Positions 3,001-28,947 of a DNA stretch of 64,000 nucleotides are shown here, in pieces. The position numbers were made by a program, and so were the translations under genes. This stretch comes from an uncultured Flavobacteriales bacterium (GTDB lineage: Bacteria > Bacteroidota > Bacteroidia > Flavobacteriales_F > PHOS-HE28). Within the stretch, counting starts at the first letter, position 1, and every line of letters begins with the position of its first letter. The stretch is from NCBI GenBank assembly GCA_937872175.1, contig CALMPI010000010.1, positions 186,001 to 250,000 on the forward strand. The letters are read 5' to 3'. Below the pieces are notes generated by a model that was given only the letters and a program-made list of their open reading frames with translations, ran no database searches and was not told the origin of the DNA.

Positions 3001-5254
3001 GCGCATCAGTGTGTTCACCGGACCGGACTGCAACACCCTGAGCTGCTACACGATGAGCGACGACTTCGGCGGCGCCTGCACCAACCGCAGCCAGCTGGAG
3101 TTCTTCGCCCAGAGCGGACAGACCTACTACATCGCCGTGCACAGCCCCTCGCCCTTCGCGGACGGCCAGTTCGAGCTGCAGATCGGCTGCGGTGCGGTAT
3201 GCCCGCGCCCGATCAACGACGACTGCGTGAACGCCACGCCGATCATCAGCTATCCGGAGGACGGCAGCGGCATCTCCACCACGGGCGACAACAGCTGCGC
3301 GCAGAACGATGCGTACACCACCTGCACCCCGGTGCTGAACAACCAGGGCGTGTGGTACACCTTCAACAGCGGTGTGAACACCCTGCACCGGCTGACCCTG
3401 CTGGGCAATGAGCAGAGCGGCGGCCTCACCGCCAGCCAGCTCAACTACGCCCTGTTCAGCGGCAGCTGCGGCAACCTGGGCGCCGCCGGCGAGGAGATCT
3501 GCGTGCAGGACGGTGACGGGTACGACATCCTGCTCACCGGCCTCAGCACGGGCACGGACTACCTGGTGTACATCTACAACCCCGGCAGCACGGGCTTCGA
3601 GGGCACCTTCGAACTGCTGCTGGAGCACCCGGGCGTGAACGATGCCGGCATCACCGACATCATCGAGCCGACCGGTCTGGTCTGCACCTCCTTCCTGACG
3701 CCGAAGGTGGCCCTCACCAACTTCGGCGAGGCCACCCTCACCAGCGTGGACATCGTGTACGACCTGAACGGTGGCGGACCGGGCCAGGGCCCCTTCGTGT
3801 ACACCTGGACGGGCAGCCTGCCCTTCGAGGACACCCTGGTGGTGGACCTGCCGGGCTTCACGGCGCCCTACGGCACGCACACCCTGAACGTGACGGTGCA
3901 GAACCCGAACGGCCAGCCGGACGACATCGCCACCAACAGCAGCCTGAGCGAGCCCAACATCGACGTGACGGGTGAGACGGTGGTGGTGGAGATCACCACG
4001 GACAACGACCCGAGCGGCATCTTCTGGGAGATCCAGGACCAGGCCTTCCAGAGCGTGGCCATCTCACCGTTCTACAACACGGCGAACACCACCGAGACGC
4101 TGCCGATCTGCCTGAGCACGTTGAACGGCAACTGCTTCAGCTTCTACCTGTTCGACTTCCTGGGCGACGGCCTCAGCGGAACGGGCAACGGCAACGGCAG
4201 CTGGCGCCTGCGCACCACCGATGGCCGCACCCTGCTGGGTGACTCCTTCGACGGCACCATCAACGGTGTGCTGACCCCCAACAGCCCGCCGGCGACCTCC
4301 GGCTATGTGAGCGGCCACGAGTTCTGCCTGCCGGCCGGCCCGAGCCAGCCCCTGGCGGCCGAGTGCGGCGTGTTCACCAACCTGCTGCAGAGCAAGGTGT
4401 TCACCAGCATCGTGCCCGGCGTCACCACCTACCAGTTCGAGTTCAGCGACCCCGACGCCGGCTTCCGCCGCCGCATCGCCGTGCCGCGCAACTGGGTGAA
4501 GTTCTCCGAGATGGTGACCAGCCCGCTGTTGCCCGGTGTGCGCTACTTCACCCGCGTCCGTGTGGACCAGGGTGCGTCCGGCCTCACCGACGACCGCTTC
4601 GGCACGGGTTGCGAGATGGGTCTTGACCCGACCGCCGTGCCGGGCTGCACCGGCCTGGTGGACGACATCGGCTTCCCGGCCCACAGCTGCGGCGTGATCA
4701 AGACCTTCGGAGGTTCCGACAAGGTCTTCGCGCAGCCTGTGGTGGGGGCCACGCAGTACCGCTTCCGCTTCGAGAACATCAACGAAGGCTACCTGCGTAC
4801 GATCATCCGTCCCAACTACATCTGCCCGCTGAGCTGGGTGACCCTGCCCCTGCAGAACGGTGTCACCTACGACGTGAGCGTGGAGGTGCTGTACAACGGC
4901 CAGTGGAGCGGCTACTGCGGCCCGGTGTGCCAGGTGACCATCCTGAACCCGCCGGCCATGGCCCAGCAGCGTAATGCCGAGGTGGTGACCAACAGCGGTC
5001 TGCAGGCCTGGCCCAACCCGGTGCGCGACGGCGTGGTGAACCTCCGCCTGGACGGCCTCACCGCCGGCACCCAGCGCGTGACCCTCGAGGTGTTCGACCT
5101 CACCGGCAAGCGCGTGGTGAACCAGGAGATGGAGAACAGCGGCCCCGTGTTCAACACGGTGCTTGAGCTCGACGGCTTCGCCGGTGGCGTGTACATGGTC
5201 CACCTCAACGTGGACGGTGCCATCCATCAGCAGCGCATCAGCGTGGTGAAGTAG
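2..5254 (+). CDS. giant T9SS-secreted multidomain surface protein (5' end outside window)
   Basis: The reading frame is open from the first bases, so the start lies upstream; 1750 codons are visible. Domains by visible codon: the tail of a MAM-like domain (1-51), an Ig-like linker, a complete second MAM-like copy (about 146-338), a CUB-like domain with a YDGPD motif (about 436-560), several pre-peptidase C-like beta domains with paired cysteines (about 650-1210), a CARDB-like domain (about 1215-1320), the two-repeat cassette shared with the next paralogues (about 1325-1650), and a T9SS type A sorting domain containing WPNPV and FDLTGKRV (about 1655-1750). The family expectation is export by T9SS and anchoring or release at the cell surface. 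No catalytic motif is visible, so adhesion or matrix function is inference. Confidence 0.85.
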   Translation, partial: SLSGDQGQGWFLTPNLDHAYTGTQVRYRVRGISGSSFTSDMAFDYFCVSEGPACIAPTATAAVVENCLAGTFTVEVTVTSTGSGLDVNLLSDLNGVEYVNVPAWATPYVMGPYTVGQTVVITMEHGSNVDCNVVLGSFASLCPPVVNTYPYCEDFEGATLCQPSSCTTVLACTGTALEALGWDNSEADGTGNWSVDEGGTSSTATGPGNGSGTGQADYVPGTTTGNYVYMESGSCAGNTIDALSPVFDVTGMVNGSIRARMAYSMYGATMGTMSVEIEDPALSNNWTTLWTLSGDQGQGWFLTPNMDHIFTGPAVRYRVRGVSGSSFTSDMAFDYFCVRPTPLCTDPVATVTSATPSCATGNLVVEVDVTNIGTAASVAVEASVNNGPYAPVCSLNAPGQCTITVSVADVVAVRVRNEQDGDCVINLGEYDAGALNCITCGALPTVSNYCYVANDNQSWLYSASGSGTLRLFFTRGTVETNSFDDLIIYDGPDATFPVLFANPANTGNLGLPGSGILTTDPDYFSVDVTASGNFIYMTFTSDGSVQCATSTTYDPWEWSVVCFDCTFPVASATVNDNCGAGTFTITVDVTDATNAGAVDITTDFVGDAEPNNVGVGQYVLGPYPSGTLVDVTVSHPSEAFCALTFPDQNSCCNGDCSGAVAAVVGINTHGPINCGTATEALVNGTVPTGARWWSYTLPADGKVRVSACDPPNTTNDDTFVTIHEGVCGSLVPYSGDDDGCTTFNFASDVTFTGTAGQTFFIEWDNRWNGNGHDWNLEFTPCTPPVNDLCATLNPAANPLSIGVPLVFNGTRDCATKDGTLENIRFWDGVDEDVSGWVWESFLLTECANVQINYCGSPVSGIVSLNMYGDCGSLFVNSQSFDFTTCAPNATINFANLAPGTYYYPVLWDARRASGPYTLNVIATAPTIPCVANIVCSGAIPLSCPGSVIGNTDNKLPTLPANACPFTNSAVSGGSLWYSYTAASDENIILSTCGLGTAFDTRISVFTGPDCNTLSCYTMSDDFGGACTNRSQLEFFAQSGQTYYIAVHSPSPFADGQFELQIGCGAVCPRPINDDCVNATPIISYPEDGSGISTTGDNSCAQNDAYTTCTPVLNNQGVWYTFNSGVNTLHRLTLLGNEQSGGLTASQLNYALFSGSCGNLGAAGEEICVQDGDGYDILLTGLSTGTDYLVYIYNPGSTGFEGTFELLLEHPGVNDAGITDIIEPTGLVCTSFLTPKVALTNFGEATLTSVDIVYDLNGGGPGQGPFVYTWTGSLPFEDTLVVDLPGFTAPYGTHTLNVTVQNPNGQPDDIATNSSLSEPNIDVTGETVVVEITTDNDPSGIFWEIQDQAFQSVAISPFYNTANTTETLPICLSTLNGNCFSFYLFDFLGDGLSGTGNGNGSWRLRTTDGRTLLGDSFDGTINGVLTPNSPPATSGYVSGHEFCLPAGPSQPLAAECGVFTNLLQSKVFTSIVPGVTTYQFEFSDPDAGFRRRIAVPRNWVKFSEMVTSPLLPGVRYFTRVRVDQGASGLTDDRFGTGCEMGLDPTAVPGCTGLVDDIGFPAHSCGVIKTFGGSDKVFAQPVVGATQYRFRFENINEGYLRTIIRPNYICPLSWVTLPLQNGVTYDVSVEVLYNGQWSGYCGPVCQVTILNPPAMAQQRNAEVVTNSGLQAWPNPVRDGVVNLRLDGLTAGTQRVTLEVFDLTGKRVVNQEMENSGPVFNTVLELDGFAGGVYMVHLNVDGAIHQQRISVVK
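14..1014 (+). repeat. tandem MAM-like repeat, 870-nt period
   Basis: The segment from about nt 9 to 153 recurs at about nt 879 to 1014. Identical stretches include the codons for GDQGQGWFLTPN and the codons for FTSDMAFDYFCV. The offset is 870 nt, or 290 codons. The window therefore opens inside an upstream copy of the MAM-plus-Ig-like unit, and more copies may lie to the left. Confidence 0.8.
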
Positions 5255-5277
5255 GCCCGCTGAACCAACGAAATGCG

Positions 5278-5307
5278 AAAGCCCCCCGCTCCGGCGGGGG
5301 GCTTTTT
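5278..5307 (+). terminator. intrinsic terminator after the first giant gene
   Basis: A perfect 9-bp GC stem (5281-5289 with 5294-5302) with loop TCCG is preceded by AAA and followed directly by TTTTT. It starts 23 nt after the stop codon. This is the strongest intrinsic terminator in the window. Confidence 0.9.
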
Positions 5308-5385
5308 CGTGGCCGGAACGGCCGCACCTGTTGATAACTCATTCCGACGAACGGACGACTTTGCCCGACCAAGTGACAAAACCGC

Positions 5386-5415: not shown

Positions 5416-5593
5416 ACGTCCACTTAACCAACACCACGCACCACCGCGTGACGGGCCGTGGCCCGGAGCGCACCTGTGAAGAGGATCCCGAGCGCCTTAC
5501 CACCCTGAGCCCCAGCCTGCGGGCTGCACCCACCGGACCATGGCCCGGCACCGCCATCCCCACGAACCGAACCCTTACCAAAACCCTACACTC

Positions 5594-8500
5594 ATGAATT
5601 GTCGACCCTACTCGACATCGCCCCGGCGCCAGCGCTGGTGGCAGCGTGGTGCCCTTGCCCTGGGCACCGCCGCATTGCTCGGCCTGCCCGCCGTTCAGGC
5701 CCAGTTCGTCATCATCGGCACGGACGCGGTGTCCACCGCAGGGACCGGAAGTGACCCGGTGGATGATTACTTCAACTTCATGCGGTATCAGACGGTGTAC
5801 ACCGCCGCCGAACTCTCCGGTGCGGGCATGCCTGCCGGTGCCCAGATCTCGGCCCTCGGCTTCTCCGTAATCGAGGACAACGGTCCCGCCTTCCCGACCT
5901 ACACGATCCGGATGGCCCACACCACGGCGACGAACAGCGCTGCGCACGATGCGGCCGCGCTGACGACGGTCTTCGGTCCGGCGAGCTACGACGCGGTCAC
6001 CACGCTGGCCGGTTCGCACGACATGATCAGCTTCAGCAGCAACTTCACGTGGAACGGCGTGGACAACATCCTGGTGGACATCTGCACGGGAACGAGCTCC
6101 ATGCCCTATGCGTCCCCCTACGGGGGTGTGCGCGGCGCCACGGTGACGAATGGCTCGCGGCGTGTCCGTTGCGACGGATGCGGCACCCAGTGCAGCATCA
6201 ATACCAACACGACCAATACCGTCCGCCCGCAGATCCGCTTCAACTACCTGGCCTTGAGCTGCACGCAGCCGGCGGCCACGGGCACGGTGAGCGCGTTCTC
6301 CTGCGCCAGCCCGAACTATACGGTGGACGTGAACCTGACGAGCCTGGGCGATGCGCCCACAGTGGACATCGTGAGCAGCGTGCACGGCATCATCGCCGAT
6401 GATGTGAGCGCCCTCACCGTGTACACCACACCTTCCACGCCCTGGGGCACGCCCCAGACGATCACCGTGCTGCACAACGGCGACAACACCTGCGACATCG
6501 TGGTGGGCACCTTCAACCAGACCGACAATGACGATGTGTGCCATGCGGCCAGCACCTTCCCCATCCCGGACAACGGCTGTGCGACCCTGAACTACCGGGA
6601 TGTGGCGTTCTGCGTGAGCGACCCCGGCACGGTCCTGGGCACCGACGTGTATGTGAGCAGCGTGGACCTGATCATCGCCCACACCTGGAACGATGACATG
6701 GACATCCAGCTGATCAACCCGAACGGCACGGCGGTGAACCTGGTGCTGGACCGGTTCGGCAGCGGCGACAACCTGGGCAACCCGGCGCTGTGCCCGGCGG
6801 GCCTCTTCACCCTGCAGGACGGCGGCGCGGCGTTGACCGTCACGGCCACCAGCAACGTGGTAGGCACATACAACCCCGAGCAGCCGCTGACCACCTTGCA
6901 CGACGGCAGCAACCCCAACGGGGTGTGGACCCTGCGGGTGTGCGATGACGCCATCGGCGACCTGGGCGATGTGCGCTTCGTGAAGGTGAACCTGATCCCC
7001 TGCCTGGCGCCCACGGCCACCAGCAGCAGCACCAACGATTGCGGCACCGGCACCTACACGGCCAGCGTGAACGTGACCGCCCTGGGCACGAGCGCGAGCG
7101 TGGACATCACGAGCAGCGTGCACGGCACCCTGTTCAGCGGGGTGGGCACGGGCGTGTATGCCAGCAACCCCACGGCCTTGGGCACGCCCGAGACCATCAC
7201 CGTGGTGGCGAGCAACCCGGCCTGCAACCTCACCTACAACTTCACCAACGCGGATAACGACGAGGTGTGCCACCCGATCACCAGTTTCCCGGTGAGCGCC
7301 ACCTTCCCCATCACCAACGTGCCGTTCTGCGTGAGCGACCCGGGCACGGCCCTGGGTACGGATGCCTTCGTACAGAGCGTGGACCTGATCATCAGCCACA
7401 CGTGGAACGAGGACATGGACGTTCAACTCATCAACGCGAACGGCACCATCGTGAACCTGGTGTTCGATCGCTTCGGCAGCGGCGACAACCTGGGCGACCC
7501 GTCGCTCTGCCCCGGCGGCCTCTTCACCCTGCAGGCCGGTGGCACCGCGCTCAACAACACCATCACCAGCAACGTGGTGGGCACCTACGCGCCCGAGCAG
7601 CCGCTGAGCACCCTGCACGATGGCAGCGACCCGAACGGGACCTGGATCCTGCGCGTAACGGATGATACCGGTGGCGATGATGGCGGCGTACGGTACGTCG
7701 GTGTGAACATCGTGCCCTGCGAGGCCCCGGTGGCCGGTGGCCAGACGATCGTGCCCGCCTGCGGCACGAACGAGTACTTCATCGACGTGAACCTGTCCAG
7801 CCTGGGCAGCAGCGCCAGCGTGGACCTGAGCAACGACTTCAATGCGAACGTGGTGACGGCGAACGCACCCGGCGTGTGGCAGGTGGGCCCCTTCCCCACC
7901 GGTACCACGGTGACCGTGACGTTGGAGGCCAGCAACGCCCTGTGCGATGTGAGCCTGGCGCCGCAGACCTACAACTGCCCGCCGCCGAACGACGATTGCA
8001 GCGGTGCCATCGCGGTGAACTGCAACAGCATCACGAACGGCAACACGCAGTTCGCCACGCTGGATGCGGTGGGCACCTGCACCACGGCGCTGAACACGGC
8101 CCCGGGTGTGTGGTACACCGTGACCGGTACGGGCGGCGAGATCAAGATCGCCCTGTGCGGCTCGGCCTACGACACCAAATTGGGCGTCTTCACCGGCAGC
8201 TGCGGCACGCTGACCTGCCTGGAGGGCAATGACGACGACAACGGCACGAACGGCCTGGATGTGTGCGCCAACAACCTGCACAGCAGCCTGAGCTTCCCGA
8301 GCACCTTCGGCACCACCTACTACGTGCTGGTGACGGGCTACCTCACGAACGCGGGCGCCTTCAGCATGGAGGTGACCTGCGCGGGCAACAACCTGCCGCC
8401 CTGCCAGGACAATGAAGTGACGCTGAACCTGCGCACGGACGACTTCGGCTCCGAAACGAGCTGGAACATCGTGCCCTTCGGCAACACGCTGCCGGTGTGC

Positions 8501-9721
8501 AGCGGTTCGGGCTACCCGAACAACGCCGATGTGACGGTGTCCTGCTGCCTGATCGATGGCTGCTACGACCTGAACGTGTTCGACAGCTTCGGTGACGGTC
8601 TGAGCCTGAGCACCCCGGCCGGCCTCGGCGGATACAGCCTGGTGGATGCCAATGGCAACCGCATCATCGACAACACGGCCGATGGGGATGACTTCACCTT
8701 CACGAGCAGCGCGGCTTCACCGTTCTGCCTGCCGCTGGGCACGGACAAGCTGCTGTTCAGCAGCTGCGACCGCGAGGACTGGACCCCGAACGAGTTCGTG
8801 GTGGCGGCCGAGAACGCGGCCGTGAGCGCCCAGTGGCTCGTGGGTGACCAGACCGACGACGGCTACCAGTTCTGGTTCTTCAACCCCGATGGTGTGTACA
8901 ACCGCCGCATCTTCCGCAACCACGCCACCAGCGGCGGCTTCGGTCCCCCGAGCGCCACGCGTGCGTGCCACGTGAAGATCAGCAGCATGGTGACCGCCCC
9001 GGTGCCCTACGATGTGCTGCTGAACGTGCGCGTGCGCAGCCGTGTGAACGGCGTGTACAGCGAGTTCGGTCCGGCCTGCCGCTTCCTGATGCCCACCACG
9101 CCGCCGGCCTGCCCGCCGACCAGCCTGGTGAACAACCCGAACAACCCGAACTTCAGCTGCGGGGTCATCAAGACCTTCGGCGGTTCGGACAAGGTGTACG
9201 CCAACCCGGTGACGGGGGCCAACAAGTACCGCTGGCGCTTTGAGCGTGATGGCGGCGGCTTCACCCGCGTGATCTCCAGCAACACCGCCACCCTGGTGCT
9301 GAACTGGCTGACGCAACCGCTGGTGGACGGCGACACCTACAACGTGACGGTGGCGGCCAGCTTCGACAACGGCGCCAACTACTGCCCCTACGGCCTGAGC
9401 TGCCAGGTGACGATCGACAACTCGCCCGCCGCCCAGGCGCGCGCGATGGAGACCGCCAGCGGCTTCAGCCTGTACCCCAACCCGAACCGCGGCGACCAGG
9501 TGGTGCTGAACATCACCGACCTGCCCGAGAGCGAGGTGCTGGTGACCGTGGACATCGTGGACGTGTTCGGCAAGCGCGTGATGAGCATGACCGAGGGCGC
9601 CCAGAACGGCAGCCTCAACCTGGTGCTTGCGCTTGACAACAGCCTGGTCAGCGGCATGTACACCGTGCAGGTGACCGCCGGCGAACAGACCTTCACCGAG
9701 CGCTTGGTGATCAACAAGTAA
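5594..9721 (+). CDS. T9SS-secreted protein with two P-domains and the shared C-terminal cassette
   Basis: This is a predicted secreted protein of 1375 aa. The ATG at 5594 is preferred over the in-frame 5540 because it gives a compact signal peptide: an RRQRWWQR n-region, then a hydrophobic core ending AVQA. An N-terminal beta-rich domain is followed by two proprotein-convertase P-domain-like units (about residues 336-470 and 573-708) with the motif LDRFGSGDNLGNP or close variants. Ig-like linkers and a PPC-like domain (about 796-936) follow. The C-terminal cassette is at about 940-1290 and the T9SS type A sorting domain at about 1295-1375 (LYPNPNRGD, DVFGKRV). P-domains usually accompany proteases, but no protease domain is visible here. 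A role as surface or matrix protein is inference. Confidence 0.88.
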   Translation: MNCRPYSTSPRRQRWWQRGALALGTAALLGLPAVQAQFVIIGTDAVSTAGTGSDPVDDYFNFMRYQTVYTAAELSGAGMPAGAQISALGFSVIEDNGPAFPTYTIRMAHTTATNSAAHDAAALTTVFGPASYDAVTTLAGSHDMISFSSNFTWNGVDNILVDICTGTSSMPYASPYGGVRGATVTNGSRRVRCDGCGTQCSINTNTTNTVRPQIRFNYLALSCTQPAATGTVSAFSCASPNYTVDVNLTSLGDAPTVDIVSSVHGIIADDVSALTVYTTPSTPWGTPQTITVLHNGDNTCDIVVGTFNQTDNDDVCHAASTFPIPDNGCATLNYRDVAFCVSDPGTVLGTDVYVSSVDLIIAHTWNDDMDIQLINPNGTAVNLVLDRFGSGDNLGNPALCPAGLFTLQDGGAALTVTATSNVVGTYNPEQPLTTLHDGSNPNGVWTLRVCDDAIGDLGDVRFVKVNLIPCLAPTATSSSTNDCGTGTYTASVNVTALGTSASVDITSSVHGTLFSGVGTGVYASNPTALGTPETITVVASNPACNLTYNFTNADNDEVCHPITSFPVSATFPITNVPFCVSDPGTALGTDAFVQSVDLIISHTWNEDMDVQLINANGTIVNLVFDRFGSGDNLGDPSLCPGGLFTLQAGGTALNNTITSNVVGTYAPEQPLSTLHDGSDPNGTWILRVTDDTGGDDGGVRYVGVNIVPCEAPVAGGQTIVPACGTNEYFIDVNLSSLGSSASVDLSNDFNANVVTANAPGVWQVGPFPTGTTVTVTLEASNALCDVSLAPQTYNCPPPNDDCSGAIAVNCNSITNGNTQFATLDAVGTCTTALNTAPGVWYTVTGTGGEIKIALCGSAYDTKLGVFTGSCGTLTCLEGNDDDNGTNGLDVCANNLHSSLSFPSTFGTTYYVLVTGYLTNAGAFSMEVTCAGNNLPPCQDNEVTLNLRTDDFGSETSWNIVPFGNTLPVCSGSGYPNNADVTVSCCLIDGCYDLNVFDSFGDGLSLSTPAGLGGYSLVDANGNRIIDNTADGDDFTFTSSAASPFCLPLGTDKLLFSSCDREDWTPNEFVVAAENAAVSAQWLVGDQTDDGYQFWFFNPDGVYNRRIFRNHATSGGFGPPSATRACHVKISSMVTAPVPYDVLLNVRVRSRVNGVYSEFGPACRFLMPTTPPACPPTSLVNNPNNPNFSCGVIKTFGGSDKVYANPVTGANKYRWRFERDGGGFTRVISSNTATLVLNWLTQPLVDGDTYNVTVAASFDNGANYCPYGLSCQVTIDNSPAAQARAMETASGFSLYPNPNRGDQVVLNITDLPESEVLVTVDIVDVFGKRVMSMTEGAQNGSLNLVLALDNSLVSGMYTVQVTAGEQTFTERLVINK
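6595..7720 (+). repeat. tandem P-domain repeat, 717-nt period
   Basis: Two P-domain copies lie 717 nt (239 codons) apart. For example, the codons for FCVSDPGT begin near 6608 and again near 7325. Both copies keep the SGDNLG and PEQPL(T/S)TLHDGS blocks. An in-frame duplication within the gene is the simplest reading. Confidence 0.75.
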
Positions 9722-10011: not shown

Positions 10012-13000
10012 ATGGCACACTCTGCACTCCTTTCCCGACCGGTGCTCCGGTCCTTGCGGTCGCTGCTGGCGATCGCCGCGTGGCTGCTGCCCACCTGGTG
10101 GGCGGCGGCGCAGGTCGCACAGACCTTCAACACCTCCGGCAGCTTCGTCCCACCCGCCGGGGTCACCCAGGTGCTGGTGGAATGCTGGGGCGGTGGCGGC
10201 CGCGGTGGCACGCGCACCACGAACGGCCAGGGCGGTGGCGGTGGCGGCGGGGCTTACTCCCGCGCCCTGGTGCCGGTGACCCCCGGCACCCCGTACACGG
10301 TGAACGTCGGTGAAGGCAGCACCTCGACCGCACCGGGCGGCGACTCCTGGTTCGGCACGGCCGGCACGGTGATGGCCGAGGGCGGCAGCAGCTCCGGCAA
10401 CAACAGCACCACCGGCGCGACGGGTGGCACGGCCGCGGCCTCTGTAGGCACGGTGAAGTTCAGCGGCGGCAACGGCGCGAACGGTGGTTCGATCATCTTC
10501 ACCCGCTGGGGCGGAGGCGGCGGCTCCAGCGCGGGCTACGCTGCGGCGGGCGCGAACGGGTTGTTCGGCACGGCCGGCACGGCCCCCACGGGAGGCGGCA
10601 ACGGCGGCAACGGCCCCAGCAGCCAGGCCAACGGCACGGCCGGCAGCGCTCCGGGCGGTGGCGGCGGCGGTGCCGTCCGCACCAGCAGCGGAACCCGCAC
10701 CGGTGGTGCGGGAGGCGATGGTCAGGTGATCGTGACCTACTACGAAGGCGGCGCCTGCATCAGCGGCACGACCGGGTTCAACAGCATCCCGGACAACGCC
10801 TGTGGAAGCAACACCTACATGCATGCGCCGATGCGCGTGACCGGTCTGCCCACGACCCTGGGCACCAACCCCGGCAATGCCCGCCTCACCAGCGTGGAGC
10901 TCATCGTGGCCCACACGTACAACAGCGACCTGCGCATCACCCTCACCTCCCCGGCCGGCACCACGCGCAACCTGGTGCTGAACCGTTTCGGCAACGGCGA
11001 CAACCTGGGCAACCCGGGCGCCTGCCCCGGCACGGTGCTCACCCTCACCGACGGCGCCGCCGCCCTGGTGAACACCAACACCAGCAACGTGGCGGGCACC
11101 TTCGCTCCGGAGCAGACCCTGGCCGGCTTCACCGGCGACCCCAACGGGGCCTGGGTGCTCAACATCTGCGACAACGCGAACGCGGACGTCGGCCGCCTGG
11201 TGATGGCGCGGTTGAACTTCTGCACCGTTCCGCTGATCACCGGCTTCGGCTCCAACGGCCCGATCTGCGCCGGGCAGACCCTGGACCTGACCTCGGCCGC
11301 CACGGGTGATGCGCCACTGGCCTACACGTGGTCCGGCACGGGCACCTTCGCCCCCGACAATACCAGCGCCAACGTCTCCGTGACCGGTGCGGCCACGGGC
11401 AACTACACGGTGACGGTGAGCAACGCCTGCGGCTCGGCGCAGCAGGTGATCCCGGTGACGGTGAACCCGCTGCCCGTGATGAGCTGCCCGGCGGACATCA
11501 CCGGCGTGTGCAGCGCGGACGCACCCTTCGCCCTCAGTGGAGCGACACCGCTCGGCGGCACATACAGCGGTCCGGGCGTGAGCGGTGGCAGCTTCGACCC
11601 CGGCGCGGCCGGAGCGGGCACGCACCTCATCACCTACAGCTACACCGATGGCAACTCCTGCTCGAACAGCTGCACCTTCACCATCGATGTCACCCTGGCC
11701 ACCACCTGGTACAGTGACCTGGCGGACGGCGACGGCCTGGGGGATCCCGGCAGCCCGCTGCTGGCGTGCAGCCAGCCCGTGGGCTACGTGGCCGACAACA
11801 CGGACGGATGCCCGGCGGTGAGCGGCACGGTGGGTGATGCGTGCAACGACGGCAACCCCTTCACCACGGGCGACGTGCTGAACGGCAGCTGCGTCTGCGC
11901 CGGCACCCCGGCCCCCTGCACCAACTGGAACCTCGCGATCACCACGGACGCCAACGGTGCTGACGTGAGCTGGCAGCTGAAGGACGCCAACAGCCCCTTC
12001 ATTCTGGCCAGCGGCAGCGGCCTGCCGGACAACACGACGGTGAACAGCTCCTTCTGCGTGCCGGTGGGCGCGTGCTTCGAACTGACGGTGAACGACGCTG
12101 GAAGCAACGGCATCGCCGGAGGCGGCTGGGTGCTCACCGACGACCAGGGCGAGCGCGTGATCGACAACACGGGCAATGGCGGCTGCTTCGGCGGCAGCAG
12201 CACCTCGGTGAGCGAGAGCATCTGCAACGCGATCGGCACCGACAAGCTGATGTTCAGTGACTGCGACAAGGAGGACCACCAGCCCGGAGGCAACGTGTTC
12301 GCCAGCGAGAATCCGGCGGTGAGCGCGCAGTGGGGCGTGGGCGACCAGACGGACGACGGCTACCAGTTCTGGTTCTACGACCCCTGCAGCGGGTACAGCC
12401 GCAGGATCTTCCGCAACCACGCCACCAGCGGCGGCTTCGGCCCGGCCAACGCGCAGCGCGCCACCAAACTGGCCCTGGCCAGCATCGTCACCAACCCGCT
12501 GCCGCAGAACACCCTGCTGAACGTGCGGGTGCGCAGCCGGGTGAACGGGGTGGACCGCGATTGGGGTCCGGCCTGCCGCTTCCGGATCGCCACGGCGGCC
12601 TGTCCGCAGACCAAGCTCATCGACACGCCGAACCACATCAACTACAGCTGCGATGTGACGCGCACCTTCGGCGGCAGCGACAAGGTGAGCTGCTTCCCGG
12701 TGGCCGGTGCGAACAAATACCGCTTCCGCTTCGAGAACATCGGCGAAGGCTACCTGCGCAACGTGACCAGCAACAGCGCCACGCTGGTGCTCAACTGGCT
12801 GACCCTGCCGCTGCAGAACGGGGTGAGCTACGACGTGCAGGCGCAGGCCAGCTTCGACGGAGGCCTCACCTACTGCCCGCTGGGCGCCGTCTGCGTGGTG
12901 ACGATCCTGAACCCGCCGGGCCAGGGCGGCCAGCGTGCGCTGGAGATCACCGCCGGGGTGGACGAGCTCGCGATGTGGCCGAACCCGACCGCGGACGGCG

Positions 13001-13221
13001 CCTTCGACATCCGATGGAGCGGACGGCCCGAGGAGGTGAGCACGGTGGAACTGGCCGTGATCGACCTGAGCGGCCGCGTGATGCAGCAGCAGCAACTGCC
13101 GGTGGCCGACGGGCTGCTGACGGCCCGGATCGCCCCCGGCACGCCCCTCACCAGTGGTCTGTACTTCGTCCGCCTCACCGCCGGTGAACTTCAACGCACC
13201 GAACGCCTCGTGGTGCGCTGA
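10012..13221 (+). CDS. T9SS-secreted glycine-rich/P-domain protein with shared C-terminal cassette
   Basis: This is a predicted secreted protein of 1069 aa. ATG 10012 (MAHSALLSRP) is chosen because it begins a signal peptide ending near WWAAAQ; the longer frame from 9862 adds a non-signal extension. Residues about 35-245 form a very glycine-rich domain (ECWGGGGRGG, GGGGGGGAYS). A single P-domain-like unit (about 253-402), a PKD/Ig-like segment and a short thrombospondin-3-like remnant follow. The constant cassette is at about 640-985. The T9SS type A sorting domain (MWPNPTADG, LSGRVMQ) ends the protein. Its layout matches its two neighbours, which points to a paralogous family with exchanged N-termini. 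Function is not known. Confidence 0.87.
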   Translation: MAHSALLSRPVLRSLRSLLAIAAWLLPTWWAAAQVAQTFNTSGSFVPPAGVTQVLVECWGGGGRGGTRTTNGQGGGGGGGAYSRALVPVTPGTPYTVNVGEGSTSTAPGGDSWFGTAGTVMAEGGSSSGNNSTTGATGGTAAASVGTVKFSGGNGANGGSIIFTRWGGGGGSSAGYAAAGANGLFGTAGTAPTGGGNGGNGPSSQANGTAGSAPGGGGGGAVRTSSGTRTGGAGGDGQVIVTYYEGGACISGTTGFNSIPDNACGSNTYMHAPMRVTGLPTTLGTNPGNARLTSVELIVAHTYNSDLRITLTSPAGTTRNLVLNRFGNGDNLGNPGACPGTVLTLTDGAAALVNTNTSNVAGTFAPEQTLAGFTGDPNGAWVLNICDNANADVGRLVMARLNFCTVPLITGFGSNGPICAGQTLDLTSAATGDAPLAYTWSGTGTFAPDNTSANVSVTGAATGNYTVTVSNACGSAQQVIPVTVNPLPVMSCPADITGVCSADAPFALSGATPLGGTYSGPGVSGGSFDPGAAGAGTHLITYSYTDGNSCSNSCTFTIDVTLATTWYSDLADGDGLGDPGSPLLACSQPVGYVADNTDGCPAVSGTVGDACNDGNPFTTGDVLNGSCVCAGTPAPCTNWNLAITTDANGADVSWQLKDANSPFILASGSGLPDNTTVNSSFCVPVGACFELTVNDAGSNGIAGGGWVLTDDQGERVIDNTGNGGCFGGSSTSVSESICNAIGTDKLMFSDCDKEDHQPGGNVFASENPAVSAQWGVGDQTDDGYQFWFYDPCSGYSRRIFRNHATSGGFGPANAQRATKLALASIVTNPLPQNTLLNVRVRSRVNGVDRDWGPACRFRIATAACPQTKLIDTPNHINYSCDVTRTFGGSDKVSCFPVAGANKYRFRFENIGEGYLRNVTSNSATLVLNWLTLPLQNGVSYDVQAQASFDGGLTYCPLGAVCVVTILNPPGQGGQRALEITAGVDELAMWPNPTADGAFDIRWSGRPEEVSTVELAVIDLSGRVMQQQQLPVADGLLTARIAPGTPLTSGLYFVRLTAGELQRTERLVVR

Positions 13222-17595: not shown

Positions 17596-17664
17596 CGCGA
17601 CACCGGCCCTCGCATCGGAGCCCCGGCCGACCTGCAGCAGCAGGGGCCGGGGCTTCGTGCGTTC
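17386..17664 (+). repeat. 279-bp direct repeat, copy 1 (sorting-domain end plus terminator)
   Basis: By eye, this segment matches 28738-29016 with five mismatches and no gaps (constant offset 11,352 nt). The last roughly 180 nt, covering the stop codon and the terminator, are identical. It encodes the end of the T9SS sorting domain. Confidence 0.95.
17620..17656 (+). terminator. two-part GC-rich terminator hairpin
   Basis: A 9-bp stem (17620-17628 with 17645-17653) is extended by an inner CCTGC/GCAGG stem (17631-17635 with 17640-17644) and followed by a weak T tail. The identical hairpin occurs at 28972. Confidence 0.75.
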
Positions 17665-21800: not shown

Positions 21801-24800
21801 CATCGACATCCGCGTGGATGCAGGCGTGGTGTACTTCGGCGGTCAGTTCACCTCGGCCGGCGGTCAAGTGCGCCACCACGCCGCAGCGCTGGACGCGAGC
21901 ACCGCTGCACCCCTGCCGTGGAACCCGATGCTCAACACATACTTCCTCCGCAGCATCTCCATCGCGGGCGGCAACATCTTCATCGGTGGGGGGTTCACGT
22001 TTGTGAACGTGGTGCCGCGCAACCGACTTGTTGAGCTGACCCCTGTGACCGGGGCCATCACCGCATGGGACCCGAACGTGGCCGGCAACGTGCTCGCGCT
22101 GGAGTTCGACGCCACCACGGTTTACGCCGGTGGGGCCTTCACCACCGTGAACGGATCCACCGGGCGCAACAGGATCGCCGCCCTCGACCGCACCACCGGC
22201 CTCGCCACCAGCTGGTCGCCCAACGCGGACAGCGATGTGGCCGCGCTCTGGAAAAAGGATGCCAGCACGATCTACGTCGGTGGCTACTTCAACAACATCG
22301 GTGGAGCCGTTCGCTCAAGACTTGCGGAGATCGACCTGACCATCGGGCTCGCCACGGCCTGGGACCCCTCCCCGGAGAACGGCGGCACCCACGTGAAGAC
22401 AGTGGCGTACGATGGCACGCGGGCCTATGTGGGTGGTCAGTTCCAGTACATGAAGGCCGTGACACGGAACTATGCGGCCGCGTTCGACCTGGGCACCCAT
22501 GACCGCACGACCTGGAACCCCAACGGCGGGAACTCGGTGCACGCGCTGACCATGAACGGATCCCATGTGCTTGCGGGTGGGGATTTCACAAGCTTCGGCG
22601 GAGCCGTGCGGAACCGGGTGGCCGAAGTGGACGCCAGCACCGGTGCGGCCACGCCATGGGACCCGAACGTGAACAGCACCGTATATGCCATCCAAGCGAA
22701 CGGTGGGAGCGTTTACCTCGGTGGGGCGTTCACCACCGTCGCCGGCACTGAGCGCTACCGGTTGGCCGCCGTGGACGGCAGCACCGGGGCACTGTTGCCG
22801 TGGGATCCCGGGGCGGATGCCACCGTACGCACGCTGTCCGCACAAGGCTCCGACCTGTACGTCGGCGGCGACTTCCAGCTGATCAGCGGCAAACCCCGCT
22901 CCGGCTTGATGGCGGTGGATCGCACCACTTCCGCGATCACCGCGTGGGATCCGCGCGTAAGCAGCTTGAACAGCATCCATCAGATGTTCATCGATGGAGG
23001 TCTCCTTTACGTTGGTGGCTTCTTCGGCAACATCAAAGGCGTCTCCCGCGCCAACCTGGCGGCGGTGGACCTGGTCACGGGGGTACCGAGTGGTTGGAAC
23101 CCCGGTGCCAACTCGGAGGTGTACACCTTGACCAAGCAGGGTTCCACCGTCTACTGCGGGGGCGTCTTCACCACACTGGCCGGCCAGCCGCGCGCCAACA
23201 TGGGTGCCGTGGATGCGACCACGGGCACGATCGTCAGCTGGAACCCCGCTCCGAACGGTGCGGTGCGAACGCTCGTGGTCGATGGGACCACGCTGTACAT
23301 CGGCGGTGCGTTCACGAACCTGATGAGCACCGCGCGCAATCGCGCCGCATCGGTGGACCTCTCCAGCTTCACCCTGAACGCTTGGGACCCCAATGCGGAC
23401 GGTGAGGTCAGCGACATCGCGGTGGTGGGCGGCAAGGCGTTGCTGACCGGGGTGTTCAACAACATCGGCGGAGCGGCGCGGAGCTCGCTGGCCTCCTGGA
23501 ACGTGGCCACCGGGGCGATCAACAGCTTCAACCCCGGTGCGAACAACGATGTGCACGATCTGGTGATCAACGGCAGCACCTTGTACGTGGCCGGCGAGTT
23601 CAACAGCCTTTCCGCCAACACACGGAATCGCATCGGTGCCGTGAACGGCTCAACGGGCGCCATCACCACGTGGAACCCCAACGCCAGCACCACGGTCACG
23701 GACATCGAGCTCGCTGGATCCACGATGTACGCCTGCGGGCCGTTCACGACCATCGGCGGTGCATCCCGTTCGCGGCTGGCGGAGCTGAACCTGGCCTCCA
23801 ACACGGCCACCGCGTGGAACCCCGGCCTCTCAGGCGGCACGGCCACCCCGAACCGGTTGACCCTGACACCGACCAGCGTGATCGTCACCGGGGCCTTCAC
23901 CACGGCGGGCGGTCAACCGCGGGTGAACCTGGCCGAGCTCGACCGCACGACCGGCCTGGCCACGGGATGGAACCCCGACCCGAACGCCACGCTGCAGACG
24001 GTAGTGTACGACGGCACCCATGTGTTCGCCGGGGGCAGCTACACGGTGATCGGCAACCAACCCCGCGCGCGACTGGCCGCCCTGGACGCCAGCGGAACGC
24101 TCACCGCCTGGAACCCGGGTGCCGGCAGCACGGTGCGGGCCCTCGCCTTGGATGCGAACAACGTGTACGTGGGCGGCGACTTCACCACGGCCGGTGGCCA
24201 GCCGCGCAACCGCATCGCAGCCATCGATCGGTCCACCGGCCTGGCCACCGCCTGGAACCCGAACAGCAATGGCGCGGTGCACGCGTTGCACCTGGGCCAG
24301 GGGGGCTTGTATGCCGGTGGGGCCTTCGCCACCATCGGGGGTTCATCACGGCTTCGGATCGCGCAGCTCGACCTGGGCACCGGCCTCGCCACCAGCTGGG
24401 CGCCCTCGGTGACCGGCACACAGGTATCGACCATCAAGCGCCAGGGCAACACCGTGTGGCTGGGCGGCTCCTTCTCGGACGTGAACGTGACAGCCCGCTC
24501 GAACATCGCCAGTGTGGACGCCACGACCGGCTTGCTCACCCCCTTCAACCCCAACGCCAACGGCGCGGTGAACACCTTGCTCGTGGACGGCAATGACGTG
24601 TATGCCGGGGGCACCTTCCAGATCATCGGCGGGCAGGGCCGAAACCGCTTCGCGAAGTTGAACGCCACCACGGGCGTGGTGGACGCCAGCGATGCACTGG
24701 CCAGCAATCCCGTGCTGGGCATGGCGCACAGTGGCACCAAGCTGATCACGGGCGGCAGCTTCACCTCCATCGGTGGTGCCGCGCGCGAGCGCACGGCGGT

Positions 24801-27800
24801 GCTGGACAAGTCCAACCTCGGCGCAACCGGCTGGGACATCGGTGCCACGAACAACAATGTGACCGGGGTGGCCACCGACGGTGTGCGGGCCTACTTCGGC
24901 GGGCTCTTCACCTCGTTCGGAGGAACGAACCGCAGCTACTTCGGTGTGGCCACGCTCTGCCCCACCCCATCCACCTACTACCGCGACAACGACGGCGACG
25001 GCTTCGGGAACCCGCTGGCGAGCGTGCAGCTCTGCGAGCAGGTGCCCGGCGTGGTGACGGACAACACCGACTGCAACGACAACGATGCGGCACAATACCC
25101 CGCCGCACCCTGTGACGACCTCAACGCCTGCACCACGAGCGACGCCTACGACGCCACCTGCACCTGCGTGGGCGCTCCCCTGCCCGACGGTGATGGCGAC
25201 GGCACCTGCGATGCGCAGGACGGCTGCCCCGTGGACCCGCTGAAGATCGCTCCGGGCCAGTGTGGCTGCGGAAACCCGGACACGGATACGGACGGCGACC
25301 TGACGGCCGACTGCAACGACCTATGCCGGATGGACCCCTTGAAGGTGGCCCCCGGCGTCTGCGGATGCGGCGCACCGGATACGGACACCGATGGTGACCT
25401 CACCGCCGACTGCAACGATGGCTGCCCGGCCGACCCGCTGAAGATCGCCCCGGGCCAGTGCGGCTGCGGGAACCCCGACACGGACACGGACGGCGACGCC
25501 ACGGCGGACTGCAATGACGGGTGCCCGCTGGATCCGCTGAAGACCGCGGCAGGCCAGTGCGGGTGCGGCGCTCCGGATACGGACACGGATGGGGATGGCA
25601 TTGCGGATTGCCTGGACACCTGTCCATCCCTTGCCGGCCAGATCGGGGATGCCTGTGATGATGGCAACGCGGTGACCAGTGGGGACACGATCTCCACATC
25701 GTGCACCTGCGCAGGTGCATTCACGCTCCCGGTAGGCTATCCCCACCGACCAGGAAGTGGAACGCGCGCATGGATCAGAGGTATTGACGGATATCGTGCG
25801 TCGATCGCTTCGGCTCCACAGATCACGCCAGGAACGGGTGACTGGAGCCTGGAACTATGGATCAGGAACCTGACCGGGGGATCAACCGGGAACCCGATGA
25901 TCCTCGCGATGAACGGCAGCGGTGGGATCGGTGGAGGGCCTGGGGGCGTGGAGAACGACTACTTCTTTCTCGCACGCGGAGGTGGATCAACACCGTTCTA
26001 CGCGTTCCATTTCAGGGACTCCACAGGTACGCTCCAGATCATCAACACCGGACCTACGGAGTACGGCACGTGGCATCACCTGACCATCGTACGGGACTCC
26101 TCGGCCAACACGCTCAGGGCGTACGTGGATGGAACGCTTCGCGCAACGCAGAGCATCACATTCGGTGACGTGTCGCCCATGAACCCGCTCATCATCGGTG
26201 GCGTCGAGAGCGCCGGAAGCAATGGCTATTCTCAGCACTGGTCCGGTTACGTGGACGAGCTCCGCATTTGGGGAACAGCGCTGAGCGCAAGCGCCATCCG
26301 CGATCACATGTGCAAGAAGGACCTTTCCCAACATCCGGCGTTGGCTGACCTGCACGCGTACTACCGGTTCGACGAGGGTGCAGGGAACAGCTTGATCGAT
26401 ATCGCCGGACAGGACAACAACGGCGTTCTTCCCTTGGTGTCGTGGGGCCGCAGCGAAGCGCCCATCGGCGATATCAGCGCCTACAACTACGGTGGCGGAA
26501 GCGCCAGCATCAACGATGGTACGATCTTCACCTCAAGCGCTCCACAGAACGCATTCGTCACCCATGTGTTCAAGGTCAGGGAGGCACCGAACACCAGTGT
26601 CTTCACGGGTCTGACGGAGGCTGACACCAGTGAATACCATGGTGTTTTCATATCCGCGCCGAATTCGGCTCTTGCCACGAGTACGATCACCTGGGATTAC
26701 AGTGCGGACACCGTCCTGAACGGAGCGGTCGGGGAACCTCAGTTGCGGCTTGCGCGTCGAACGCACGCCATGGCGGATTTCACAACCGCTGGTGTGCTGA
26801 ACTTCAGCATCGACACGGCGAACAACACGCTCACGGTCAGCGGCATGGAGTGGCAGGAGTACATCGCCGGATTCAACTGTTCCGGAAGCTGCGACGATGG
26901 CGACCCCTGCACGGTCAGTGATTCCGTGGATCCCAATTGCGGGTGCGTTGGTCTATCGGCACCGGATAGCGATAGCGATGGAACTTGCGATCCGATCGAC
27001 GGCTGCCCGGCCGACCCGCTCAAGACAGCGCCTGGCCAATGCGGTTGCGGCATGCTGGACACGGACACCGACGGAGACCTCACCGCCGACTGCAACGATG
27101 GTTGCCCGAACGATCCGCTGAAGATCGCACCCGGTGCTTGCGGATGCGGCGAGTTGGACACCGACACGGACAATGACCTCACGGCCGACTGCAACGACGG
27201 CTGCCCCACGGACCCGAACAAGACCTGGGAGGGCATTTGCGGCTGCGGCACCCCCGACGTGGACAGCGATGGCGACACGGTGATGGACTGCCTCGACGGC
27301 TGTCCCACGGATCCGAACAAGCTCGCGCCAGGCATCTGTGGCTGCGGCACCCCGGACAGCGACACCGATGGCGACGGTACGGCCGACTGCAACGACCTAT
27401 GCCCGATGGACCCGAACAAGACCGCCCCGGGCAGCTGCGGCTGCGGCCAGGCGGAGCCGGGCACGGTGTGCAATGACGGCGACCCCAACACGGGCAACGA
27501 TGTGGTGAACGCCAGCTGCCAGTGCGAGGGCCTGCCGATGGACTGCCTCGGAGTTCCGGGTGGCACTGCCCTGCCGGGCACCACTTGCGACGACGGCGAT
27601 GGGAACACGGTGAACGATGCCTACGACGCCAACTGCGTCTGCTCCGGAACGCCGGCCAACGCTGGTGTGCAGCTCACCCTCACCACGGACGGCGGAGCCG
27701 CGCAGACCAGCTGGGAGATCATCCCACAGGGCGGCGGCGCATCGATCTGCAGCGGAGCGGGTTATGCGAACAACAGCACCTTTGTGTTGACCTGCCCCAT

Positions 27801-28947
27801 CGTCGCCGGGTGCTACGAGCTGCGCGTGCTGGACAGCTTCGGCGACGGCATGAGCACCGGTGGCTACGCGTTGCGCGATGCCAACGGCCAGCGCATCATC
27901 GACAATGCCGGCGACGGGGTGTTCACCTTCGAGAGCCGCATCGCCAACAGCGGCGGCTTCTGCCTGCCCCTGGGCACCGACCGCCTGCGCAGCAGCCGCT
28001 GCGATCTGGAAACGATGCTGCCCACCGATTGGGTCGCCGCGGAAGAGAACGCGACCGTCAGCGCCCAATACGGAACAGGTGCGCAGAACGACGACGGGTA
28101 CCAGTTCTGGTTCTTCAACCCCGATGGTGGGTATAGCCGACGGATCCTGGTCACCCATGCCAGCGCCAGCTACCTCTTCCCGGCCGGACCGGCACGGGCC
28201 TGCCACATCGCCTTCTCCGGCATCATCACCAACCCCCTGCCGCAGCAACAGCTGCTGAACGTGCGGGTGCGGAGCATGGTCAACGGCGTCTACGCCCCCT
28301 TCGGTCCGGCCTGCCGGATGCGCATCGCGCCGTTGTGCGCCACCACCCAGTTGAACAATGACCCCATGAGCACGGAATACTCGTGCGGGGTGACCCGGGT
28401 GTTCGGTGCCATGGACAAGGTGCATGCGCAGGCTGTCACCGGGGCGAACCGGTACCGGTTCCGCTTCGAACGCACGGGCGGTGGGTTCACGCGCGTGATC
28501 GCCAGCACCACACGCAGCTTGCAGCTCAAGTGGCTCACGCTCCCGCTCGTGGCGGGGGACAGCTACACGGTCACCGTGGCACCCAGCTACGACGGCGGGG
28601 CCACCTACTGCCCCTATGGGGCGGCCTGCACCCTGGCGATCGTGGCGCCGGCCACTGCACAGGCGCGTTCCGCGCCCATGGTGCAGGGCGACCTGCTCCT
28701 GTTCCCGAACCCGAATCAGGATGGACGTCTGAACGTGCTGGCCGATGGGCTGCCGGTGGAAGCCACCACGGCCGACCTCTCGATCACCGACCTCTTCGGC
28801 AGGCAGGTGTACAACGGGCAGGTGCCCGTGGCCGATGGCGTGGTGCGGCAGGTGATCGACCTCAGCGGCCGCGCCGCATCGGGTGTCTACCTGGTGGTGC
28901 TGCGCACCGGCGAGCACGAACGCATCCAGCGCTTGGTGATCGAATAG
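18802..28947 (+). CDS. 3381-aa T9SS-secreted propeller-repeat/LamG adhesin-like protein
   Basis: This is the largest gene in the window. A clear signal peptide (SSSLVLLCVAYLSPAALTQA) starts it. Residues about 24-2050 are about 42 repeats of roughly 45-50 aa with the pattern VYxGGxFTTxGGxxRxxxAxxD, close to delta-60/DUF5122 beta-propeller blades. A thrombospondin-3-like array covers about 2055-2310. A LamG/concanavalin-like domain (about 2312-2560: WSLELWIRN, YGTWHHLTIVRD, YVDELRIWG) and an adjoining beta segment to about 2690 follow. A second thrombospondin-3-like array covers about 2693-2950. The constant cassette (about 2955-3285) and the T9SS type A sorting domain (LLFPNPNQDG, ITDLFGRQVYNG) end it. 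No enzyme motif is visible. A surface adhesin or matrix fibre that binds glycans through LamG is inference. Confidence 0.9.
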   Translation: MKSSSLVLLCVAYLSPAALTQAQTVEPHWWVPNGAVNAIERDSLTGTVYLGGDFTSVGAPVPFGAWLDPVTGTPDVNWAQPGGTVYNGIPDGSGGWFICGSFTQVGDLPRTRVARLNSAGSVTGFNVDIPSGIVRRLLLSGDTLYMGGEFTAANNQRNLLAVNATSGALLNLFPGGLNGIVRALEKSGNTLWAGGNFTRTNGDGPKLSQMDKTSAVTDWHFVKPNGDVRCSAPDGAGGWYIGGTFTTVGGVARQRAARINADGTLHAWDPNVNADVNSIEVDGGTVYLGGTFTTVGGQARGRLAAVDASTGAVLPFFAGQGISPGYNVNDLVVNGTDLIVGGRFSFVGTPEPFGAKLDIATGAADANYVNPNLPVFTSVPDGSGGWFIGGTFTQVNGTARRGVARINADGTLNAWNPVCNGDVLALHYDGTTLHMGGTFTTVGGQPRRLVSAVDGTTGALLPFNANNVSGTSVNAVHKAGPALYVGGTFQDMGGTTRQNLAALDATTGAILPGWKYVTNVGVRAMTSNGTDVFTGGDFTLVGLDRPSGTAVDPVTGEPDFSYLEPNSTIYAAIPDGSGGWYVGGSFDKIGFTARSRIARINADGSVHPWNPGANNIVRCLLLHGGVLYAGGDFTQLGGQTRNYIGAVDVVTGTATTWNPNLNAAVLSLGTDGTNIVAGGSFTTLAGNYQPNFVSLNPATGLRAYDVATNNTVSAVKGDGTALYMGGSFTNVGRAIRYGAVLTTSSSIALPDVVMPNNEVHCSMPDGAGGWYIGGRFTTVNGVTRNHAARINADGTLHAWNPNANSVVYSMAMGAGVVYLGGSFTTMGGSTRNRIAAVDGTTGVATAWNPNANDQVLALVVDGPNVYAGGRFSTIGGQTRQKLAQLDATTGLASTWNASMASGTSAFVTGLELSGAGTLYVAGEYGSLGGAARIRAGEISLATAVATSWAPSGIGGTTNCIRVNDANSVFIGQTGGPGITKWNRSTSAQITSWNALVSGSAIDIRVDAGVVYFGGQFTSAGGQVRHHAAALDASTAAPLPWNPMLNTYFLRSISIAGGNIFIGGGFTFVNVVPRNRLVELTPVTGAITAWDPNVAGNVLALEFDATTVYAGGAFTTVNGSTGRNRIAALDRTTGLATSWSPNADSDVAALWKKDASTIYVGGYFNNIGGAVRSRLAEIDLTIGLATAWDPSPENGGTHVKTVAYDGTRAYVGGQFQYMKAVTRNYAAAFDLGTHDRTTWNPNGGNSVHALTMNGSHVLAGGDFTSFGGAVRNRVAEVDASTGAATPWDPNVNSTVYAIQANGGSVYLGGAFTTVAGTERYRLAAVDGSTGALLPWDPGADATVRTLSAQGSDLYVGGDFQLISGKPRSGLMAVDRTTSAITAWDPRVSSLNSIHQMFIDGGLLYVGGFFGNIKGVSRANLAAVDLVTGVPSGWNPGANSEVYTLTKQGSTVYCGGVFTTLAGQPRANMGAVDATTGTIVSWNPAPNGAVRTLVVDGTTLYIGGAFTNLMSTARNRAASVDLSSFTLNAWDPNADGEVSDIAVVGGKALLTGVFNNIGGAARSSLASWNVATGAINSFNPGANNDVHDLVINGSTLYVAGEFNSLSANTRNRIGAVNGSTGAITTWNPNASTTVTDIELAGSTMYACGPFTTIGGASRSRLAELNLASNTATAWNPGLSGGTATPNRLTLTPTSVIVTGAFTTAGGQPRVNLAELDRTTGLATGWNPDPNATLQTVVYDGTHVFAGGSYTVIGNQPRARLAALDASGTLTAWNPGAGSTVRALALDANNVYVGGDFTTAGGQPRNRIAAIDRSTGLATAWNPNSNGAVHALHLGQGGLYAGGAFATIGGSSRLRIAQLDLGTGLATSWAPSVTGTQVSTIKRQGNTVWLGGSFSDVNVTARSNIASVDATTGLLTPFNPNANGAVNTLLVDGNDVYAGGTFQIIGGQGRNRFAKLNATTGVVDASDALASNPVLGMAHSGTKLITGGSFTSIGGAARERTAVLDKSNLGATGWDIGATNNNVTGVATDGVRAYFGGLFTSFGGTNRSYFGVATLCPTPSTYYRDNDGDGFGNPLASVQLCEQVPGVVTDNTDCNDNDAAQYPAAPCDDLNACTTSDAYDATCTCVGAPLPDGDGDGTCDAQDGCPVDPLKIAPGQCGCGNPDTDTDGDLTADCNDLCRMDPLKVAPGVCGCGAPDTDTDGDLTADCNDGCPADPLKIAPGQCGCGNPDTDTDGDATADCNDGCPLDPLKTAAGQCGCGAPDTDTDGDGIADCLDTCPSLAGQIGDACDDGNAVTSGDTISTSCTCAGAFTLPVGYPHRPGSGTRAWIRGIDGYRASIASAPQITPGTGDWSLELWIRNLTGGSTGNPMILAMNGSGGIGGGPGGVENDYFFLARGGGSTPFYAFHFRDSTGTLQIINTGPTEYGTWHHLTIVRDSSANTLRAYVDGTLRATQSITFGDVSPMNPLIIGGVESAGSNGYSQHWSGYVDELRIWGTALSASAIRDHMCKKDLSQHPALADLHAYYRFDEGAGNSLIDIAGQDNNGVLPLVSWGRSEAPIGDISAYNYGGGSASINDGTIFTSSAPQNAFVTHVFKVREAPNTSVFTGLTEADTSEYHGVFISAPNSALATSTITWDYSADTVLNGAVGEPQLRLARRTHAMADFTTAGVLNFSIDTANNTLTVSGMEWQEYIAGFNCSGSCDDGDPCTVSDSVDPNCGCVGLSAPDSDSDGTCDPIDGCPADPLKTAPGQCGCGMLDTDTDGDLTADCNDGCPNDPLKIAPGACGCGELDTDTDNDLTADCNDGCPTDPNKTWEGICGCGTPDVDSDGDTVMDCLDGCPTDPNKLAPGICGCGTPDSDTDGDGTADCNDLCPMDPNKTAPGSCGCGQAEPGTVCNDGDPNTGNDVVNASCQCEGLPMDCLGVPGGTALPGTTCDDGDGNTVNDAYDANCVCSGTPANAGVQLTLTTDGGAAQTSWEIIPQGGGASICSGAGYANNSTFVLTCPIVAGCYELRVLDSFGDGMSTGGYALRDANGQRIIDNAGDGVFTFESRIANSGGFCLPLGTDRLRSSRCDLETMLPTDWVAAEENATVSAQYGTGAQNDDGYQFWFFNPDGGYSRRILVTHASASYLFPAGPARACHIAFSGIITNPLPQQQLLNVRVRSMVNGVYAPFGPACRMRIAPLCATTQLNNDPMSTEYSCGVTRVFGAMDKVHAQAVTGANRYRFRFERTGGGFTRVIASTTRSLQLKWLTLPLVAGDSYTVTVAPSYDGGATYCPYGAACTLAIVAPATAQARSAPMVQGDLLLFPNPNQDGRLNVLADGLPVEATTADLSITDLFGRQVYNGQVPVADGVVRQVIDLSGRAASGVYLVVLRTGEHERIQRLVIE
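18870..24955 (+). repeat. array of about 42 delta-60-like blade repeats
   Basis: I counted 42 occurrences of the GG-x-F (or slightly degenerate) core over about 6.1 kb. Every fourth or so blade in the first half begins with PDGSGGW or PDGAGGW, a super-repeat. The second half uses the simpler TGLATxWNPN link. All repeats stay in one frame, so this is a protein repeat and not a CRISPR or satellite. Confidence 0.85.
24968..27660 (+). repeat. two thrombospondin-3-like arrays flanking a LamG-like insert
   Basis: Units of the type DTDTDGDLTADCNDGCPADP plus APGQCGCG recur from 24968 to about 25734 and again from about 26881 to 27660. The interval 25735-26880 has a different composition: two 60-nt lines I counted are 60% and 53% GC, against 78% in one line of the propeller array. 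It encodes a LamG-like domain. The 3' array from 27199 is closely related to 15817-16140. Confidence 0.75.

Follow-up and report, generated by a model that had tools for sequence, protein, structure and literature searches.

The gene cluster and its cassette copies

Five large genes on the forward strand of the window, by which we mean the whole 64-kb stretch of DNA analysed in the present study, end in a common C-terminal cassette of ~425-435 aa. Gene 1 (2-5254) extends upstream of the window, its full open frame of 3125 aa being readable in L139, and encodes Ig_7, MAM and other repeats ahead of the cassette. Translation and Pfam scans indicate P-domains in gene 2 (5540-9721, 1393 aa), whose called start may be an internal methionine (MNCRPYS...), and a glycine-rich domain, a P-domain and a PKD-like region in gene 3 (10012-13221, 1069 aa). 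Gene 4 (13396-17595, about 1399 aa) has an Ig/PKD-like region followed by a Cys/Asp-rich calcium-repeat-like region, with no Pfam match to its N-terminal part, and gene 5 (18802-28947, 3381 aa) combines DUF5122 beta-propeller repeats, LamG and Cys/Asp-rich repeats. The original prediction described five tandem genes; the cluster has six members, the sixth (about 2400 aa; L139:2416-9681, corresponding to contig 10, 174416-181681) lying directly upstream of gene 1, and its run is interrupted between genes 4 and 5. The interrupting gene (17719-18537) was recognised by eye as AraC-like and is possibly a local regulator. The genome carrying the window comprises 4.3 Mb in 52 contigs, and a housekeeping block (rpoC, rpoB, ribosomal protein genes, nusG and tuf) can be read by eye on the minus strand at 44353-57263 of the window.

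The predicted recurrence of a ~430-residue cassette at five sites was borne out by translation and alignment, with all five copies stopping one codon short of the stop codon. Each consists of a module of ~100 aa, here called M, two repeats, R1 and R2, and a type A type IX secretion system (T9SS) sorting domain (CTD). Copy 1 occupies 3977-5251 (M 3977-4315, R1 4316-4642, R2 4643-4963, CTD ~5000-5251), copy 2 8411-9718 (M 8411-8716, R1 8717-9112, R2 9113-9430, CTD 9464-9718), copy 3 11920-13218 (M 11920-12213, R1 12214-12600, R2 12601-12927, CTD 12967-13218), copy 4 16279-17592 (M 16279-16569, R1 16570-16959, R2 16960-17292, CTD 17341-17592) and copy 5 27661-28944 (M 27661-27951, R1 27952-28335, R2 28336-28656, CTD 28693-28944), all on the forward strand. 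Identity to the cassette of gene 5 over its full length is 65% for gene 4, 51% for gene 2, 44% for gene 3 and 36% for gene 1, the most divergent of the five, and gene-versus-gene BLAST E-values range from 8e-41 down to 0. A T9SS protein encoded next door (29168-31450) lacks the cassette and has in common with genes 4 and 5 only the Cys/Asp-rich repeat that lies upstream of it; the similarity of the five copies therefore exceeds that expected of any T9SS protein. This neighbour combines LVIVD propeller repeats with Cys/Asp-rich repeats of the form CDDGDPxTxxDxYDAxCxCxG.

Pfam scans identified a mixed set of N-terminal domains across the family, including P-domain, MAM, LamG, beta-propeller, subtilase and galactose-binding-like domains, among others. 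The N-terminal part is presumably the displayed part of these proteins, and any role in recognition or binding is putative. The claim that everything N-terminal of the cassette differs was too strong, given that P-domains are common to genes 2 and 3 and that genes 4 and 5 are 64% identical across their last 696 aa, ~240 aa of which lie upstream of the cassette. The sixth gene likewise has a cassette 93% identical to that of gene 1, and parts of the N-termini are also common to both.

The clearest recent event in the window's own lineage is a gene-conversion-like tract of 287 nt at the ends of genes 4 and 5 (17378-17664 and 28730-29016, forward strand), where the two genes are 98% identical. 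It takes in most of the CTD together with the stop codon and continues for ~69 nt beyond, where there is a GC-rich inverted repeat, while R2 is only 40% identical between the two genes. Within the window itself, this one local tract is the only signal of exchange.

Composition of the cassette and its link to type IX secretion

Two related beta-sandwich repeats and a T9SS domain had been predicted, and these were found, although the description omitted M, which precedes both repeats and carries the motif SWEI...CYELxVxDSFGDG. R1 (~110-130 aa) is marked by YQFWFFNPDGGYSRRI and R2 (~107 aa) by CGVIKTFGGSDKV, and conserved Cys residues are present in the R module. No Pfam or NCBIfam model matches M-R1-R2, the sorting domain alone being detected in the cassettes; specifically, fn3 (PF00041) did not match R1 or R2 at E 0.01 in a Pfam scan of the cassette. 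A PDB sequence search with the cassette returned mainly T9SS tags, the remainder being at chance level.

Structure prediction, proposed alongside the original prediction, supported its beta-sandwich description. An AlphaFold2 model of the cassette based on 96 homologues is predicted to be all-beta with a mean pLDDT of 92.8, and its sole segment below 50 (residues 341-349) falls exactly between R2 and the CTD; in copy 2 this low-confidence linker corresponds to ~9431-9457. Foldseek matched the model to tandem fibronectin type III (FN3) domains at E about 1e-9, with low whole-chain TM-scores (0.17-0.28), as expected when interdomain angles differ. R1 and R2 are thus predicted to form a beta-sandwich tandem with an FN3/Ig-like fold. 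The cassette can also be a protein by itself, since four complete frames (L010, L011, L193 and L100) have little beyond an apparent signal peptide upstream of it.

All five proteins exceed the TIGR04183 cut-off of 23 bits (33.1, 46.4, 40.3 and 32.8 for genes 1-4, and 37.8 for gene 5), and genes 2-5 begin with candidate Sec signal peptides, hydrophobic stretches ending in AQ-type sites as read by eye. SprA, PorV and PorU are all encoded in the genome with scores above their cut-offs, and the PorV family numbers four proteins over its cut-off. The same genome encodes at least 150 type A tags (150 candidates were scored) versus 14 R-type cassettes or cassette fragments. Type A tags are carried by PorV to the PorU sortase, where they are cut and the protein is then linked to A-LPS or released, the cut being expected in the linker before the sorting domain (PMC10202324), and the tag determines localisation (PMC12618676). 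As a separate observation, contig 2 of G000 carries a divergent PorU-like frame of 1823 aa adjoining a second PorV-family gene (117991-124022), whereas the main PorU/PorV pair is located on contig 1; this is possibly a second attachment module.

Distribution and exchange of cassettes among relatives

The cassette was found in all 45 genomes examined of the order, which is represented by one genus, at 3-14 copies each. From 177 distinct frames with R we drew 166 with a complete C-terminus, and in 161 of these the cassette is terminal with a T9SS tag, typically ~95-105 aa after R2; the proposal of a fixed, T9SS-linked and nearly always C-terminal cassette under varied N-termini is therefore supported order-wide. 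About a dozen frames in relatives have a single R and represent a shorter variant. Outside the genus, weak matches were found in only two genomes of an even draw of 395 from the phylum, with up to seven candidates per genome scored. Nine genomes belonging to other families proved on a closer search to contain R-type repeats, for the most part as tandem arrays and usually directly before a T9SS tag. M is common across the class (96 of 198 genomes) and mostly unaccompanied by R. The lineage-specific feature is therefore the fixed M-R1-R2-tag combination, and the cassette, which is indeed unnamed as far as Pfam and NCBIfam are concerned, is built of wider modules that are not special one by one. 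Homologues were collected with profiles built from the window, so that very divergent cassettes are missed. Many of the genomes are draft MAGs, and the main cases of exchange come from assemblies of one to nine contigs (G009, G004, G024 and G041).

To what extent cassettes and N-termini have separate histories was assessed by comparing 167 cassettes and their N-terminal parts separately. Many cassettes within each of six genomes (G004, G009, G024, G037, G041 and JAHBUL) are 80-98% identical to one another. Among 54 within-genome pairs with cassettes at least 80% identical and real N-termini, which are not phylogenetically independent, the N-termini gave no BLAST match in 33 and a match over less than a quarter in a further eight, so that 41 pairs combine near-identical cassettes with N-termini of no or very little similarity. 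Cassettes of a genome also tend to fall together in a FastTree phylogeny, where each of five genomes has one cluster of its own, with 10 of 10 cassettes for G004, 11 of 11 for G024, 5 of 5 for G041, 11 of 14 for G009 and 7 of 9 for G037. Genome labels change 35 times on this tree; when they were shuffled 500 times, the mean was 89 changes and the minimum 81. Taken alone, such clustering on the tree could also come about by lineage-specific duplication.

In most G009 and G024 pairs and in the closest G041 pair, DNA homology starts no more than about 25 nt from the start of M, in some G009 pairs it begins 80-150 nt earlier, and in G004, JAHBUL and part of G037 the onset lies near the M/R1 boundary. 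At the other end, homology is lost close to the stop codon, although in many pairs it persists for a further 50 nt to a few hundred nt. The single contig of G009 provides an example in which six genes, spread over 1.58 to 3.27 Mb, have cassettes 87-98% identical (90-98% at the DNA level); in most pairs the homology sets in 9-14 nt ahead of M. Among their N-termini are a subtilase combined with MopE repeats, an NHL propeller combined with LamG, a galactose-binding-like domain and ephrin-receptor-like repeats.

Exchange is also apparent from comparison of species. The N-termini of L103 in G004 and L085 in JAFDZG are orthologous (86% identity over 1040 aa), and their R2 and CTD are only 50% and 21% identical, respectively, while G004 paralogues match L103 at 94-97% in R2 and 91-92% in the CTD. 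Nearly identical R1-R2 units in G004 are followed by CTDs of very different types, with identities as low as about 20%, which indicates recombination at the R2/CTD boundary as well. The idea that the tag is homogenised throughout a genome was considered and rejected, as the CTDs of G004 cassettes have a median pairwise identity of 26% (up to 94%) and are overall no more uniform than other tags; their separation into quite different groups points to homogenisation by blocks between copies and not of the tag in general.

These data bear directly on plain paralogy, in which ancestral whole-gene duplications would have kept the C-terminal end while the N-terminal halves drifted apart or gained repeats, and high identity within a genome would simply mark recent duplications. 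Some same-genome pairs do have common N-termini as well, for example gene 1 with its upstream neighbour and two G041 genes. The explanation also fits the window's own subclade (G000, G023, G025, G026 and G033), where cassette and N-terminus have evolved together, orthologous cassettes being 78-95% identical and paralogous ones mostly no more than 65%. In G025 and G026, the orthologues of genes 2 and 3 have retained the corresponding cassette (84-94%), which rules out recent shuffling of all five window genes. Because cassettes follow N-termini vertically here, the copies in the window are for the most part old paralogues, and for most of its genes exchange is not a continuing process. The predicted exchange of N-termini on a fixed cassette is directly supported in relatives and for the most part does not describe the recent history of the window's subclade. 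As an account of the whole family, paralogy is nonetheless unlikely: the 41 mismatched pairs, the abrupt stop of DNA homology at a module boundary and the very different tags carried by orthologous N-termini between species argue against it, and largely refute it for G004, G009, G024, G037 and G041.

A putative display stalk

We consider it probable that the cassette serves as a T9SS display stalk specific to this lineage, and that module swapping together with ectopic gene conversion has diversified it. M-R1-R2-CTD would be the base on which large cargo of type IX secretion is displayed, with the type A CTD taking the protein through the T9SS and its removal expected at the flexible linker after R2. 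The M, R1 and R2 beta-sandwiches would then make up a membrane-proximal stalk holding the variable N-terminal part at the surface. The family would diversify because the cassette is an evolutionary unit, to which different N-terminal modules are joined where M (or R1, after M) begins, while copies within a genome are homogenised by recombination with one another. Such exchange at module boundaries and such homogenisation are directly seen in relatives. Export, cleavage and surface anchoring of these proteins are presumed by analogy with the T9SS literature, and the stalk role of M-R1-R2, as well as any selective reason for keeping one cassette, is conjectural. In evolutionary terms, the tail acts as a base for display that is used repeatedly, with different modules plugged into it. 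A stronger version, in which recombination keeps the cassette uniform per genome and captures N-terminal domains at M, bare signal-peptide-plus-cassette genes act as acceptors, and repertoires turn over quickly between species, is speculative and on present evidence improbable.

Equally improbable in our estimation is an extended sorting signal, whereby the export machinery or a dedicated shuttle would have to recognise sequence beyond the ~80 aa tag, as reported for type B CTDs, where >200 residues are required (PMC10202324, PMC12618676). The location of M-R1-R2 directly upstream of the tag, the bare-cassette proteins and the four PorV-family proteins are consistent with such a signal. At least ~136 other type A tags of the same genome, however, work without M-R1-R2, type A tags are described as sufficing by themselves, with a single PorV serving them (PMC12618676), and one R1-R2 type in G004 is found on two very different tag types.

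The cassette might instead be a functional binder attaching varied N-terminal cargo to a common surface or matrix glycan, as the acidic DSFGDG loop in M, the bare-cassette proteins and the best, non-significant structural neighbours of M (CBM60/CBM36-type, that is calcium-dependent carbohydrate-binding, and C2 sandwiches among them) could suggest, but this is the most doubtful reading, as M modelled alone (pLDDT 94) has no Foldseek match reaching E 0.001, which leaves carbohydrate binding as only a lead, and M is common throughout the class, mostly with no R beside it.

The closest precedent is provided by RgpA, Kgp and HagA of Porphyromonas gingivalis, T9SS surface proteins with common C-terminal adhesin modules and tag that have undergone rearrangement and recombination (PMC5266723), and in which repeated C-terminal modules likewise follow different N-terminal parts. 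No cleaved-adhesin or DUF2436 domain was matched by Pfam in any protein scanned, and the present family differs in its many more and more diverse N-termini and in its short, fixed M-R1-R2-tag unit found order-wide. No described T9SS family with a conserved C-terminus and variable N-termini was found in the open-access papers searched, most subscription journals being outside the scope of this search. Module exchange in T9SS surface proteins is cleanly exemplified by the cassette across a whole order, many pairs showing sharp boundaries at the DNA level, and in environmental bacteria as opposed to an oral pathogen. M, R1 and R2 constitute an unannotated common domain set that would improve the annotation of many 'T9SS sorting domain-containing' proteins. 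With the cassette it also becomes possible to test directly if surface presentation depends on what precedes a type A tag, and the cassette could offer a natural scaffold for protein display on Bacteroidota.

Ordinary type A cargo (PF18962/TIGR04183) ends in the same tag as all five window proteins and nearly all relatives, but only that ~75-85 aa tag is common, whereas here ~345 aa upstream (M-R1-R2) are also constant. R1 and R2 resemble FN3 tandem repeats in their predicted beta-sandwich arrangement and best Foldseek matches, and differ from Pfam fn3 in lacking a model match and in having conserved Cys and motifs of their own. The R-type repeats of other Bacteroidia families are homologues of these modules and usually sit just ahead of a type A tag; they occur as one to a dozen tandem copies without the M-R1-R2 layout, in contrast to the M and two diverged repeats present in most genes of this lineage.
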